Positions 3,387-10,394 of a stretch of DNA of 33,754 nt are shown here, piece after piece; the stretch's first letter is position 1; each line of letters begins with the position of its first letter. This DNA is from Rhodobacterales bacterium (GTDB lineage: Bacteria > Pseudomonadota > Alphaproteobacteria > Rhodobacterales > Rhodobacteraceae): contig JAUZRV010000149.1 of assembly GCA_030950105.1 (NCBI GenBank), positions 1 to 33,754 on the forward strand, given 5' to 3'. The translations under genes and the position numbers were made by a program. The notes beneath the pieces are model-generated. The model was not told the DNA's origin. It did not search any database and saw only the letters and a program-made list of their open reading frames with translations.

Positions 3387-4646
3387 TTATTCGGCAAGAC
3401 CGGCACGCAGGGCGGCACTTCTAATGGCGGCAAGAGCGTCGGAATTTCCGGCAAACACGGTTTTTGCTTCGCCCCAGATTGCGGTGGCGCGGTCGACCTC
3501 GCCCAACACACCCAAGGCCCCGATCAGGCGCGCCCATTCGGCAGGCGATCCGCCTTCGTCGGCAAGACGGGTTGAAAGTTGTTCCACCATGCCACGGATC
3601 ATCTGTTGACGGTCCTGAGTATCCATTTCGGCGGCATTTGCGACGTCCTCGGCGCTTGGTCCGGTAAGGGCGTCGCCACCAAGGGCACCGCGGTTCGGGG
3701 TGCGGGACGGCGCGGGCAGGTCATAGTCAACACCGGCGCGAATCGACATATCGACGATCTGGGCGCGGATCGGGGCGATCCAGAGCGCATCGGCAGGACC
3801 CCGTTCAAGCAGGTCACGCCACATGCGGAACGTGGCATCGGGGCGGTCGTTCTGAAAGAACATCAGGCCCATATAATAAAGCGATGCACCATCTTCGGGA
3901 TCCCGCGCAAGGGCGGCGCGCAACGCGGTTTCGGCCTCGGGAGAGACATAGCCGCCCGCCGCAAGGATCAACATATTGGCGTATTCGGCGTAATCGCGGC
4001 CGGTCGCCGCGTCGCCTTTGATCTTGAGAACTTGTTCCTGTGCGGCATAGGCGGCCTTGTAATTGCCCATCGTCATCTCGTTGCTGGCGAGCAATTGATG
4101 GCCCTGAAGATCATCGGGACGCGTAGCAACAGCCGTGCGCAGCCGGTTCATCAGATCGAGAAATTCTTCGCTGGGTTGTTCAAGCACCGGACGCGGCGGC
4201 AATTGTGATTCCACAGTTTCCTGAGACGGGCGGTTTTTATGGGCCTCGGTCGAGGCGGCAATGCGGTCTTTGAGGGCAAGATCGGGATATCCGGGCGCGC
4301 CGAGCGTATTATAGAGCAAAAGCGCGCCGCCGATCAGGGAAATTACAGTGATCGCAGCCATGACCAAGGCCGCACCACGTGGTTGCGCGGTGCCGTCATT
4401 CCCCGCAGCCAATTCCGCATCCGCCGTCAGAACACGACGTGATATTTCGGCTTTGGCGCGCTGCCCGTCTTCTGCGGAAATCACCCCGCGTGCCAGATCC
4501 TTTTCAACTTCCTTGAGTTGATCACGATAAACCCGCAAATCATATGCTGCCGGATTTTCGCCCGAATTGCGCCCGCGTATCAAAGCAACAGCGAGCAATA
4601 CCGATACAACGGCGGCGGTAAGGGCGATGATAATCCAGAATGTCAC
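3387..4646 (-). CDS. ccmI: c-type cytochrome biogenesis protein CcmI
   Basis: N-terminal TM, AAYDLRVYRDQLKEVEKDLARGVISAEDGQRAKAEISRRVL (CcmI signature), then TPR-like helices. Confidence 0.92.
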   Translation of the reverse strand: MTFWIIIALTAAVVSVLLAVALIRGRNSGENPAAYDLRVYRDQLKEVEKDLARGVISAEDGQRAKAEISRRVLTADAELAAGNDGTAQPRGAALVMAAITVISLIGGALLLYNTLGAPGYPDLALKDRIAASTEAHKNRPSQETVESQLPPRPVLEQPSEEFLDLMNRLRTAVATRPDDLQGHQLLASNEMTMGNYKAAYAAQEQVLKIKGDAATGRDYAEYANMLILAAGGYVSPEAETALRAALARDPEDGASLYYMGLMFFQNDRPDATFRMWRDLLERGPADALWIAPIRAQIVDMSIRAGVDYDLPAPSRTPNRGALGGDALTGPSAEDVANAAEMDTQDRQQMIRGMVEQLSTRLADEGGSPAEWARLIGALGVLGEVDRATAIWGEAKTVFAGNSDALAAIRSAALRAGLAE

Positions 4647-4859
4647 GGTTTTTCCTGTCGTCTTTGAAACGGGCTTGTCGTCTGTGTTCCGATCCCATGT
4701 ATAGGCGCGCGGTCCCTATAAAAAGGTCAAATCGACGAGATGCCACCGGATGTCGCAACTATTATCAAATATGACGCTTGGAAACGGGGGGCGCGCGGCG
4801 GTTGGGGGCAAAGATCGGGGCGAGATTCCCGAACACTGCGGATAGGACCTATAAAGCCA

Positions 4860-6107
4860 ATGAAACGATATTCTGTCTTTGCCATTGCGCGGGAAGCGGC
4901 GCGCTATCATTCGGGTTGGTCGCGGGCGTGGAAGTCGCCGGTGCCCCAAAAAAAATATGATGTGGTGATCATCGGGGCCGGTGGCCATGGTTTGGCGACC
5001 GCGTTTTACCTTGGCAAGAATTTCGGCATCACCAATGTGGCGATTATCGAAAAAGGCTGGCTTGGCGGGGGCAATACCGGACGTAATACCACGATTATCC
5101 GCAGTAATTATTTGCAAGATCCGTCGGCGGCGATCTATGAAAAGGCGCGCTCGCTTTATGAAACCATGTCGCAGGACCTTAATTACAACGTGATGTTTTC
5201 CCCGCGTGGCGTAATGATGCTCGCGCAGACCGAACACGAGGTGCGCGGCTATAAACGCACCGCACACGCCAATGCGTTGCAAGGGGTGTCGACCGAATTT
5301 ATCTCGGCGGATCGGGTCAAGGAACTCGCCCCGATTATCAATATTTCCGGCCCGCGTTATCCGGTTCTCGGCGCTCTGTGGCAGGAACGCGGCGGCACCG
5401 CGCGCCATGATGCGGTGGCATGGGGCTATGCGCGGGCGTGTTCCGACATGGGCATGGATATATTGCAGAAATGCGAAGTGACCGGCGTGCGATCGATTGG
5501 TGGCAAGGTCGTCGGCGTTGATACCACCAAGGGCGCGATTGATTGTGAAAAACTCGCCATTGTGGTGGCGGGGAATTCTGGCGATATCGCGCGCATGGCC
5601 GGGTTTCGGTTGCCGATGGAGAGCGTGGCCTTGCAGGCATTGGTGTCGGAACCGATCAAACCGGCGCTTGATGTGGTGGTGATGGCCAACACGGTGCACG
5701 GCTATATGTCGCAATCCGACAAGGGCGAAATGGTGATTGGTGGCGGCACCGACGCCTATAACAACTACACCCAACGCGGCGGTTTCCACCATATCGAAGA
5801 AACCGTGCGCGCGCTTGTTGAAACATTCCCGATGATTTCACGGCTTAAAATGCTGCGCCAATGGGGCGGGATTGTTGATGTGACCGGCGATCGCTCACCG
5901 ATTATCGGCACCACGCCATTGGGCAATTGTTTCATCAATTGCGGCTGGGGCACCGGAGGTTTCAAATCCATCCCCGGCGGCGGTTGGGCCACCGCAGAAC
6001 TCATTGCCAAAGGCACACCAGGGCCACTCTGCGCCGAATTTGGTTTGAACCGTTTCACCGAAGGCCGCTTTATCGACGAAAGCGTCGCGGCGGGGGTGGC
6101 GCACTGA
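4860..6107 (+). CDS. soxB: Sarcosine oxidase subunit beta
   Basis: MKRYSVFAIAREAARYHSGWSRAWKSPVPQKKYDVVIIGAGGHGLATAFYLGKNFGITNVAIIEKGWLGGGNTGRNTTIIRSNYL; FAD GxGxxG; C-terminal CGWGTGGFKSIPGGGWATAELIAKG; followed by soxD/soxA/soxG. Confidence 0.96.
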   Translation: MKRYSVFAIAREAARYHSGWSRAWKSPVPQKKYDVVIIGAGGHGLATAFYLGKNFGITNVAIIEKGWLGGGNTGRNTTIIRSNYLQDPSAAIYEKARSLYETMSQDLNYNVMFSPRGVMMLAQTEHEVRGYKRTAHANALQGVSTEFISADRVKELAPIINISGPRYPVLGALWQERGGTARHDAVAWGYARACSDMGMDILQKCEVTGVRSIGGKVVGVDTTKGAIDCEKLAIVVAGNSGDIARMAGFRLPMESVALQALVSEPIKPALDVVVMANTVHGYMSQSDKGEMVIGGGTDAYNNYTQRGGFHHIEETVRALVETFPMISRLKMLRQWGGIVDVTGDRSPIIGTTPLGNCFINCGWGTGGFKSIPGGGWATAELIAKGTPGPLCAEFGLNRFTEGRFIDESVAAGVAH

Positions 6108-6436
6108 TGGATAGTACGACTACTAATAAGCTGCATAATCAGTTTACCGCCACCCTCAAGGATATGGCTTCGCGCGCTAAGTCCGAAGCGACCTATAGTG
6201 CAACGCGTTTTCTACAGATGCTTGGTGAAAAAGGCGGAGTTGAAACTGCAAAGCACTTGCTCAGTCTACCAACTCCATCTGATGGTTTTACAAATATGGT
6301 TCTCGCCGAACGAATTGACTTAACCCTTGAGTGGGTTGTGCAAGATGACCCGTGGAAAACGTTGTTCACAGATGCAGAACTAAAAGTTGCGCGCGGTCGC
6401 ACCGGATCTAGAGGGAAATCAAAATGCTCATCCTAG
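6107..6436 (+). CDS. Small protein of unknown function embedded in the sox operon
   Basis: 109-aa ORF whose ATG overlaps the soxB stop (TGATG at 6105-6109) and whose end overlaps the soxD start (6424); MDSTTTNKLHNQFTATLKDMASRAKSEATYSATRFLQMLGEKGGVETAKHLLSLPTPSDGFTNMVLAERIDLTLEWVVQDDPWKTLFTDAELKVARG... Resembles, from memory, a widespread small hypothetical family (FLxMLxExGGVETAKxLL..SDGFTxLW..xRLDLTVE). Confidence 0.8.
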   Translation: MDSTTTNKLHNQFTATLKDMASRAKSEATYSATRFLQMLGEKGGVETAKHLLSLPTPSDGFTNMVLAERIDLTLEWVVQDDPWKTLFTDAELKVARGRTGSRGKSKCSS

Positions 6437-6753
6437 AATGTCCCTATTGCGGCGTTACCGCCGAAGAAACCGAATTTCACGGCGGTGGCGAGGCACACCT
6501 CACGCGCCACGGGCCTGACTCCTCTGAACAGGATTTCGAGGACTACCTGTTCCAGCGCGAAAACCCCAAAGGCGTGCATTTTGAACGCTGGCGGCATGTG
6601 AATGGCTGCGGAAAGTGGCTGCACGCGGCGCGTTGCACCCTGACCCTCGAAGTATTCGGCACCTATAACGCGCAAACGTTTGAACCGCCAAAACACATCA
6701 AAGACGCCATCACCGCCAAACGCCCTGGTTGGACATGGAGAACCTTCTCATGA
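6424..6753 (+). CDS. soxD: Sarcosine oxidase subunit delta
   Basis: MLILECPYCGVTAEETEFHGGGEAHLTRHGPDSSEQDFEDYLFQRENPKGVHFERWRHVNGCGKWLHAARCTLTLEV; zinc-binding SoxD motif. Confidence 0.95.
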   Translation: MLILECPYCGVTAEETEFHGGGEAHLTRHGPDSSEQDFEDYLFQRENPKGVHFERWRHVNGCGKWLHAARCTLTLEVFGTYNAQTFEPPKHIKDAITAKRPGWTWRTFS

Positions 6754-6814
6754 GATTTCATCTTGCCAAAAATACTCAAAAGAACAGCGTTTCAACCCGC
6801 GCAGGAACACGATA

Positions 6815-9800
6815 ATGAGCACACGTCTCGCCACCCACGGCCGCCTTCTTGATAAATCGCGCCCGCTGACCTTCACCTTTAACGGCAAATCCTTCAAAGG
6901 GGTCGAGGGCGATACCCTTGCCTCGGCGTTGTTGGCCAATGACCAGATGATGATCGGGCGCAGTTTCAAATACCATCGCCCGCGCGGGCTTGTCGCAAGT
7001 GGCGCAGAGGAACCCAATGGCCTTGTCAATATGGGCGAAGGCGGCAAGTTCGAGCCAAACCAACGGGTGACCACCACCGAATTGTTTGACGGGCTGACCT
7101 GCAAGAGCCAGAACCATTGGCCAAGCCTCGACTATGATATCGGCGCGATCAACAACCATATGGCGCGCTTTATGCCCGCCGGTTTTTACTACAAAACCTT
7201 CATGTTCCCGCGGTTTGCGTGGAAACATGTGTTTGAACCGGTGATCCGCATGTCTGCCGGTCTCGGCAATGCGCCAAAAGACCGCGACGCCGACACTTAT
7301 GAACATTTTTACGCCTTCGTTGACGTCTTGGTGATCGGCGGCGGTGTTGCCGGGCTGCAAGCGGCCAAAGCGGCAGGAGATGCCGGTGCAAAGGTGTTGT
7401 TGATCGAACAAACCGCGCATTGGGGCGGACGGGCCGCGGTTGATGGCGGCACGGTTGACGGCGTTCCGGTGCAGGCGTTTATCGACGCCACGATTGACGC
7501 GCTTGACGCGATGCCAAATGTGCAAATGCGCCACCGGATGATGGGGGCGGGGGTCTATGATCACGGCTATGTCCTTGGCTATGAACGCCTTACGGATCAC
7601 GCGCCGAAAACTGCGGGGCCGCGGCATCGTTTGTGGCGTATATGCGCGGCGCAAACCATCACCGCGACAGGCGCCCTTGAACGAGGATTATCCTTTGCAG
7701 GCAACGATATACCTGGCGTTCTTCTGGCGTCAGCCGTGCGTGACTATGCGGTCAATTTCGGGGTGTCGGTCGGGGATCGCACCGTGGTTGTGACCAATAA
7801 CGACGATGCCTATCGCACCGCAATTTCCCTCAAGGAAGCCGGCCTTGATGTGCCGGTTATTCTGGACGCGCGACCAACGGGCGGGGGCGCATTGGCGGAT
7901 GCGGCGCGCGCGCTCGGAATCCGCGTTGAAAATGGCAAGGCGATTGCGTCGGTTCAGGGCGGAAAACGGGTCACAGGTGTGGCGATTTGCGATCAGGCCG
8001 GCGAGGGTGCGGTTCTGGAAGAAATCCGGTGCGATTGCGTGGCAATGTCGGGCGGTTGGTCGCCGGTTGTGCACCTGTGGTCGCATTGTGGCGGTAAATT
8101 GAACTGGGATGATGATGCGGTGCATTTCCGCCCCGACCCAGACCGCCCGCCAACCGGTGCCAAAGGTGAGGCCTTTGTGATCACGGCGGGCAATGCCAGC
8201 GGCGAAATGGACCTTCATAGTGTCCTGCAAGATGCGGATAAAGCAGGAAAATCAGCCGCCAAGGCGAGCGGGCATGCGCCCACACGCACCGCCGCGCCAA
8301 CCGGCGAGAGTGCGCCGGAGGCGGTGATGATGGCGATCTGGTTGATGCCTCATGGTGCACCAATAAAATTGCGCGCCAAATCATGGCTCGACTATCAAAA
8401 CGACGTCAAAGTCAGCGATATTCAACTGGCGGCGCAAGAAGGATACGAAAGTGTCGAACACGCCAAACGCTATACCACATTGGGCATGGCAACAGATCAG
8501 GGTAAATTAAGTAATATCAATGGATTGGCGACGCTTGCCAATGCATTGGATGCAGAGATACCGCAGGTTGGCACCACCACGTTTCGCCCGCCCTATACCC
8601 CGATTTCCATGGGGGCGATTGGTGGCGAGGCGCGCGGTGATATTTTTCAACCGATCCGGCGCACCCCGATGCAGGGCTGGCACGAGGCCAACAACGGTGA
8701 TTTTGAACCTGTGGGCCATTGGCGGCGGGTGTTTTGCTATCCGAAAGCCGATGAAACCCGCGAACAGGCCGCCCACCGCGAGGTGCTGGCGACGCGCGCG
8801 TCACTTGGGCTTTTGGATGCGTCGACCCTGGGCAAAATCATCGTCAAAGGACCGGATGCGGGGAAATTCCTTGATATGCTCTATACCAATATGATGAGCA
8901 CGCTAAAGCCTGGGCGCTGTCGGTATGGTCTTATGTGTAGCGAAAACGGATTTTTGATGGATGATGGCGTGGTGGCGCGGATCGACGACGATACGTTCCT
9001 GTGCCACACCACCACCGGTGGTGCCGAACGGATCCACGCGCATATGGAGGAGTGGCTGCAAACCGAATGGTGGGATTGGCAGGTCTATGCCGCAAACGTC
9101 ACCGAACAATATGCACAGATCGCGGTTGTTGGACCTAATGCGCGGAAACTATTGCAGAAACTCACCGATGAAGATGTTTCAAACGACGCCTTTTCGTTCA
9201 TGGGCTGGTCCGACTTGACCCTAGGTCACATCAAGGCGCGAGTGTTTCGCATATCTTTCTCGGGAGAGTTGAGTTATGAAATAGCGGTGTCTGCCAGCCA
9301 AGGTCGCGCCTTATGGGATAGGTTGCTGGTGGCAGGAAAAGAGTTTGGCGTGACACCCTACGGGACCGAGGCGTTGCATATTATGCGCGCTGAAAAAGGG
9401 TTTATTATGATCGGGGACGAGACCGACGGGACGGTGATTCCGCAGGATCTCGGGCTGAATTGGGCGATTTCAAAGAAAAAAACCGACTATCTTGGCAAAC
9501 GGGCGCAGCAGCGATCGCATATGGCCGATCCGGACCGTTGGAAGCTGGTGGGGTTGAAAACGCTGGATGGCGGCACCTTGCCGGACGGGGCCTATATTGT
9601 TGGCGAAGGCGTGAACGCCAACGGACAGCGCCGGGTGATCGGGCGGGTGACATCGACGTATCATTCGCCAACTCTGGGGTATGGAATTGCGTTTGCATTG
9701 CTGTTGCACGGACCTGATCGCATGGGCGAGGTGGTCAATGTTGCGATGATCGACGACGTAGATGTGCCGGCGCAAGTGTGCGATCTGGTGTTCTTTGACA

Positions 9801-9826
9801 AGGACGGGGAGAAGCAAAATGTCTAA
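6815..9826 (+). CDS. soxA: Sarcosine oxidase subunit alpha
   Basis: MSTRLATHGRLLDKSRPLTFTFNGKSFKGVEGDTLASALLANDQMMIGRSFKYHRPRGLVASGAEEPNGLV; NAD/FAD domain VLVIGGGVAGLQAAKAAGDAGAKVLLIE; C-terminal aminomethyltransferase (GcvT-like) domain. Start at 6815; the track ORF starts upstream at 6680. Confidence 0.96.
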   Translation: MSTRLATHGRLLDKSRPLTFTFNGKSFKGVEGDTLASALLANDQMMIGRSFKYHRPRGLVASGAEEPNGLVNMGEGGKFEPNQRVTTTELFDGLTCKSQNHWPSLDYDIGAINNHMARFMPAGFYYKTFMFPRFAWKHVFEPVIRMSAGLGNAPKDRDADTYEHFYAFVDVLVIGGGVAGLQAAKAAGDAGAKVLLIEQTAHWGGRAAVDGGTVDGVPVQAFIDATIDALDAMPNVQMRHRMMGAGVYDHGYVLGYERLTDHAPKTAGPRHRLWRICAAQTITATGALERGLSFAGNDIPGVLLASAVRDYAVNFGVSVGDRTVVVTNNDDAYRTAISLKEAGLDVPVILDARPTGGGALADAARALGIRVENGKAIASVQGGKRVTGVAICDQAGEGAVLEEIRCDCVAMSGGWSPVVHLWSHCGGKLNWDDDAVHFRPDPDRPPTGAKGEAFVITAGNASGEMDLHSVLQDADKAGKSAAKASGHAPTRTAAPTGESAPEAVMMAIWLMPHGAPIKLRAKSWLDYQNDVKVSDIQLAAQEGYESVEHAKRYTTLGMATDQGKLSNINGLATLANALDAEIPQVGTTTFRPPYTPISMGAIGGEARGDIFQPIRRTPMQGWHEANNGDFEPVGHWRRVFCYPKADETREQAAHREVLATRASLGLLDASTLGKIIVKGPDAGKFLDMLYTNMMSTLKPGRCRYGLMCSENGFLMDDGVVARIDDDTFLCHTTTGGAERIHAHMEEWLQTEWWDWQVYAANVTEQYAQIAVVGPNARKLLQKLTDEDVSNDAFSFMGWSDLTLGHIKARVFRISFSGELSYEIAVSASQGRALWDRLLVAGKEFGVTPYGTEALHIMRAEKGFIMIGDETDGTVIPQDLGLNWAISKKKTDYLGKRAQQRSHMADPDRWKLVGLKTLDGGTLPDGAYIVGEGVNANGQRRVIGRVTSTYHSPTLGYGIAFALLLHGPDRMGEVVNVAMIDDVDVPAQVCDLVFFDKDGEKQNV

Positions 9827-10394
9827 TGCTGTCAGCGCCTTGGAGGGCGCAGAATTCAATGGATTTGCCGAAGTGCGCGAAATCGGCCTGCAAGGGATGA
9901 TCACCCTGCGGGGCGATCTCGGATCAAAGGCGATGGCGGGTGCGGTGAAATCGGCCACCGGATTGAAGTTGCCTGAACTGCGCCGGATTGAACAGGCCGA
10001 GGGGCAGGCGGTGGCGTGGATGTCACCGGATGAGTTGCTGGTTATGGTGCCGTATGAGGACGTTCAAAAAACCTTGGTTGCGCTTGATAAGGCGTTGAAA
10101 GGGACCCATTATATGGCGGTAGATGTGTCGGATGCACGCGCGGTTTTCCAGGTGACGGGTCCTGCGGCGGGCGACGTGATTGCCAAACTGGCCCCGATAG
10201 ATATGGGTGCGCTTGCAACGGGTGAAATCCGCCGGTCGCGATTGGCGCAAATTCCGGCGGCGTTTTGGTTGGTGGGCGATGATACAGTGAGCGGAACGGT
10301 GCAGGTGGTTTGTTTCCGCTCGGTCGCGCAATACGGGTTTGATTTGCTGAAAACAGCGGCGGAAAATGGCACAGAAGTCGGGTTTCTTGCCTGA
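9819..10394 (+). CDS. soxG: Sarcosine oxidase subunit gamma
   Basis: MSNAVSALEGAEFNGFAEVREIGLQGMITLRGDLGS...; directly downstream of soxA, with an 8-nt overlap. Confidence 0.93.
   Translation: MSNAVSALEGAEFNGFAEVREIGLQGMITLRGDLGSKAMAGAVKSATGLKLPELRRIEQAEGQAVAWMSPDELLVMVPYEDVQKTLVALDKALKGTHYMAVDVSDARAVFQVTGPAAGDVIAKLAPIDMGALATGEIRRSRLAQIPAAFWLVGDDTVSGTVQVVCFRSVAQYGFDLLKTAAENGTEVGFLA

Follow-up and report, generated by a model that had tools for sequence, protein, structure and literature searches.

Our analysis places a captured helical domain in a hypervariable slot of a sarcosine oxidase (sox) operon. Occupants of this slot usually preserve a single reading frame that opens on the soxB stop and closes on the soxD start, probably so that ribosomes can be relayed between the two genes. 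Such a domain fills the slot in the window, i.e. the whole 33,754-nt stretch of DNA analysed here. We infer that ribosomes pass through this bridge and that their passage is the selected benefit.

The bridging ORF and its operon

The features of the operon are listed in Table 1. The 109-codon ORF that the earlier note had placed between soxB and soxD lies exactly there, and both of the overlaps claimed for it are present in the sequence. At its 5' end the soxB TGA (6105-6107) and the ORF ATG (6107-6109) meet in TGATG; at its 3' end the ORF stop codon (6434-6436) falls behind the soxD ATG, which begins at 6424. With both neighbours overlapped the ORF would indeed be poised for translational coupling, as had been suggested. 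The soxB orthologues of the family stand at 80-89%.

Table 1. Features of the sox operon in the window, with positions, strand and basis of the assignment.
Feature	Position	Strand	Basis
soxB (beta subunit of sarcosine oxidase), partner on the upstream side of the slot	4860..6107	+	Pfam DAO, 5.9e-66
TGATG, overlap of soxB stop and ORF start	6105..6109	+	sequence
Bridge ORF of the slot, read as a standalone nuclease-associated helical domain (P0001)	6107..6436	+	sequence, homology, model
AGAGGG, Shine-Dalgarno-like, inside the ORF, putative site for soxD	6410..6415	+	sequence; function inferred
13-nt overlap of ORF end and soxD start (ATGCTCATCCTAG)	6424..6436	+	sequence
soxD, delta subunit	6424..6753	+	Pfam SoxD, 2e-28
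mini-ORF, 21 codons, from soxD (ATGA) to soxA (TAATG)	6750..6815	+	sequence
soxA, alpha subunit	6815..9826	+	Pfam SO_alpha_A3, GCV_T
soxG, gamma subunit	9819..10394	+	operon position, without library match

Further downstream, the mini-ORF begins on the soxD stop and finishes on the soxA start, and soxA runs 8 nt into the beginning of soxG (ATGTCTAA). The steps along the window operon are -1 (soxB/ORF), 13 nt (ORF/soxD), -4 and -1 (around the mini-ORF) and 8 nt (soxA/soxG). Each of them shows the overlap of start and stop by which termination-reinitiation coupled pairs are recognised, and judged by these overlaps the sox operon reads as one continuous relay. The mini-ORF also contains TTCATCTTGCCAAAAATACTC (6757-6777), an interspersed repeat now located in this short frame, of which the genome holds nine copies at up to two mismatches versus none for the reversed control.

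The composition of the ORF is unlike that of its flanks, in agreement with the earlier note. Its GC content is 0.471 and its GC3 is 0.422, compared to means of 0.571 and 0.650 across the genes of the window; none of 679 window coding segments of 327 nt has a GC3 as low, and against the same equal-length segments its codon usage is the least typical. One of the two hand counts of G+C given earlier was exact (24/60 at 6241-6300), while the other was off by one base (42/60 at 5941-6000, instead of 43/60).

Homology and origin of the captured domain

A chance ORF is ruled out by homologues that match over nearly the full length at ~40-53% identity. The 109-aa protein belongs to no curated family in Pfam, NCBIfam or PADLOC, has no significant match by sequence in PHROGs or PDB, and no significantly matching paralogue within its own genome. 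The AlphaFold2 model is a confident all-helical domain (pLDDT 88, pTM 0.79), for which no fold counterpart was found in PDB (best E 3.5). Relatives of the ORF are carried by plasmids of Rhizobium, Shinella, Vibrio, Streptomyces, Hydrogenophaga and Acinetobacter, and also by phage or viral contigs. Others are parts of larger proteins, and their homology to the window protein shows in tblastn matches (E as low as 1e-22, L171-L178 and L009) and in a common alignment. The domain is joined to an HNH region on L171/L173 and L174 (and, judged by eye only, on L172/L176), to a PLD-type region on L178 and to NOV_C on a Hydrogenophaga plasmid (L009). By PADLOC, the regions joined to the domain score as mREase_IV (type IV restriction; 3e-20, L174) or DrmC (7e-4, L178), and also as PD-T4-1 or TmtA. 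The expectation that homologues would be found in mobile or defence settings is hence borne out by plasmids, viral contigs and defence-type nucleases alike. On the Hydrogenophaga plasmid the NOV_C fusion (4134-7266) adjoins genes annotated as ABC-three component system. A Rhizobium-type relative of the ORF, shortened by a TAG, was seen in another genome (G089, L022 ~7462-7764) directly upstream of a gene read as dihydropyrimidinase-like.

The window protein shares a homologous helical domain of ~100 residues with the type IV restriction-like HNH, DrmC-like PLD and NOV_C proteins, and differs from them in being housed in a metabolic operon and in lacking a catalytic domain. Since no catalytic HNH, PLD or PD-(D/E)XK domain was found within the 109 aa, it does not qualify as a restriction nuclease itself. 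We take it to be a nuclease-associated helical module that here stands alone; that it binds nucleic acid or a nuclease partner is our guess at the role of the peptide. The domain recurs in defence-type nucleases and yet has no curated family model.

A single-sequence search of 61 genomes returned the ORF in the window's own genome only. By profile search, 8 of 397 genomes of the family match, six of them strongly, and five of these six carry the match directly between soxB and soxD; soxD itself was found in 242 of 249 genomes. The TGATGG junction is common to all five carriers. The 3' end of the cargo overlaps soxD in the window, G371 and G190, while in G212 it still finishes on ATGCTAA with soxD located 1.2 kb further on, which suggests a second insertion in the slot of that genome. 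The cargo of G220 has a degenerate look. Compared with 17 relatives, the five sox-slot proteins form one clade (support 96/94), and the soxB genes of the carriers are scattered over a weakly resolved soxB tree, by which vertical inheritance with soxB is not demonstrated. This picture fits a single arrival in the slot, after which losses, replacement or transfer took place. Synonymous sites were saturated in the dN/dS comparison of the cargo.

It had also been proposed that the protein is a new accessory subunit or regulator of sarcosine oxidase. Its place between two subunit genes, overlapping both, and its sox-specific clade in five genera speak in favour of this idea. A subunit should be present with most soxBDAG operons of the family, and the protein is found at sox in only 5 of 397 genomes; away from this site its homologues have no link with sox, and several are joined to nuclease regions. 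A role as accessory subunit or regulator is not supported by our data and appears highly improbable. The ORF is acquired cargo: the five proteins form one clade, but the soxB genes that accompany them are scattered. Foreign composition and the relatives on plasmids, on viral contigs and in defence nucleases partly uphold the earlier reading of a horizontally acquired cargo gene in a one-carbon operon. The ORF is no one-off, for five genera carry the sox-specific clade at the exact same spot. Wide conservation with host-like composition, named beforehand as the outcome that would speak against acquisition, was not seen.

A hypervariable slot with a preserved frame

Distances between soxB and soxD were taken from a first set of 107 genera and subsequently from 38 held-out genera (145 in total). 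In the 107-genus set the gap ranges from 11 to 2648 nt with a median of 439 nt, and the soxD-soxA median in the same loci is -4. The soxB-soxD junction is thus a hypervariable slot in which many unrelated genes have settled; among its occupants are TfoX_N proteins (10 loci), a membrane family with a QWGFGD-like end (10 loci), small one-span membrane proteins, a Trypco2-like protein and glycosyltransferases. Several low-GC occupants begin on the soxB stop, just as the window ORF does. Proteins with the TfoX N-terminal domain occupy the slot in ~10 genera (including L079, L103, L133, L141 and L163) and usually end just 5' of soxD. The membrane family with a TLQWGFGD-like end is likewise present in the slot of ~10 genera (including L107, L154, L099, L116, L155 and L128), and neither of the two members scanned has a Pfam match. 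Trypco2 is a domain of conflict systems; the Trypco2-like protein (L167) starts on the soxB stop, and its similarity is weak (E 6e-4, below the Pfam cut-off).

The slot is by no means a general property of sox operons. A gap of at most 42 nt was found in 27 of 30 junctions of divergent sox paralogues and in 18 of 20 outgroup junctions, so that most paralogues and outgroup families are without it. The earlier statement that soxB and soxD are normally adjacent is accordingly correct for divergent paralogues and outgroup families and fails for the family's own orthologue group, with its median gap of 439 nt. Chromosomal insertion hotspots are known sites for accessory genes, and the slot resembles them as one fixed site with unrelated and often low-GC occupants across related genomes. 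It differs from them in lying inside an operon, between two subunit genes, and most of the occupants seen are small genes with the orientation of the operon.

The frame opening on the soxB stop codon, here termed the bridge frame, is preserved far beyond expectation. In the 107-genus set it is bridged to soxD in 60 of the 94 gaps of at least 60 nt, compared to 9.2 expected from shuffled gaps, and 53 of the bridges finish exactly 7 nt inside soxD, on ATGCTGA or a similar sequence. At 300-699 nt the bridge frame of this set is stop-free in 25 of 38 gaps and the other forward frames in 0 and 1; at 700 nt or more the figures are 9 of 30 versus 0 and 0. The 38 held-out loci are the cleaner test, because the bridge idea came from the first 107 loci. 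Among them the bridge frame is stop-free in 20 of 34 gaps (other frames 5 and 4), and 23 of the 38 gap lengths are 1 modulo 3. With both sets combined, 77 of the 128 gaps that reach 60 nt are stop-free in the bridge frame (other frames 15 and 17), as are 49 of the 96 that reach 300 nt (2 and 2). The baseline for this excess is given by the other frames and, in the 107-genus set, by shuffled gaps. Of the 145 gap lengths, 92 are 1 modulo 3 (p 1.2e-13; here and below, p-values overstate independence, as genera are related). About 40% of the gaps from 60 nt upwards lack a single stop-free bridge frame, most commonly among the longest gaps, and some of these unbridged gaps contain another gene ending near soxD.

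An ATG-type overlap (stop + TG) is present at 75 of 99 junctions with gaps of at least 27 nt. Where no TG follows the stop, soxB has CAT as its final codon in 29 of 34 TGA cases (Fisher p 4e-4), and CAT before TGA yields TTGA, a -4 start. At junctions below 27 nt, soxB ends with TAA or TAG in nine of nine cases. Between soxD and soxA, a -4 overlap is found in 81 of 140 loci, and 39 of 56 gaps of at least 20 nt are 1 modulo 3 (p 3.5e-8).

In most cases examined the bridge frame is open across small other-frame or antisense genes, and its mean GC by codon position does not follow the pattern of genes (0.58/0.57/0.60 in bridge frames versus 0.67/0.53/0.78 in soxB tails). Because of these two properties, openness rather than the peptide appears to be kept in many genera. 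In L060, L107, L154, L120 and L139, as in the window, the bridge has instead the look of a real low-GC gene; in the window, where it is a real gene, its frame would therefore be open in any case.

Two other accounts of the slot have to be weighed against these data. If the ORF were plain horizontally acquired cargo, its overlaps would reflect compactness only and the slot would be free of any relay constraint. Foreign composition, sporadic distribution and relatives on plasmids and viral contigs all agree with this scenario, which we nevertheless regard as unlikely, for it leaves unexplained the stop-free bridges in genera without a recognisable gene in that frame, as well as the modulo-3 bias and its replication. 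In the other account the slot encodes a fast-evolving real protein, an orphan-like sox accessory, in every genus, and the frame is open because the peptide matters. Such a protein would account for a frame that is open and overlaps both neighbours, and genuine protein occupants do exist in several genera (L107, L154, L120, L139). Yet the occupants come from unrelated families, and the bridge frames often show no genic GC pattern and cross other-frame or antisense genes, so that a real protein of this kind in every genus seems quite improbable.

Proposed ribosome passage and its consequences

The relay that we favour would work as follows. The slot occupant is usually held as a single open frame between the soxB stop codon and the soxD start codon; ribosomes ending soxB would reinitiate first at the bridge ORF and next at soxD, and selection would act on the openness of the frame, i.e. 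on ribosome passage through whatever DNA fills the slot. The likely benefits are matched amounts of the oxidase subunits and an mRNA shielded from Rho-dependent polarity. Reinitiation is reported to need overlaps or very short distances, and coupled overlapping pairs are enriched among the subunits of complexes (PMC10666635); untranslated RNA exposes operons to Rho (reviewed in PMC12548453). Because reinitiation requires overlaps and untranslated RNA is open to Rho, a bridge ORF would serve both needs.

As in known termination-reinitiation coupling (PMC12548453; PMC10666635), -1 (TGATG) and -4 (NTGA) overlaps connect genes of one complex. Unlike there, hundreds of bases separate the two sox subunit genes, and it is a reading frame lying between them, for the most part unconserved, that supplies the overlaps. 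The literature searched holds no directly matching description of a bridging frame between distant subunit genes, or of insertion in operons of this kind.

The bridge pattern, rather than the cargo, is the larger finding. It seems to us an evenly balanced proposition that insertions are tolerated mainly if one frame stays uninterrupted all the way between the soxB stop and the soxD start; arbitrary DNA would then be forced into translation, and the slot would be a landing site for cargo and a nursery of new proteins at once. If the relay holds true, a long unconserved stretch kept open for coupling would show how operons survive insertions. An open slot would also help to explain orphan ORFs within operons, and would give new genes a natural place in which to arise.
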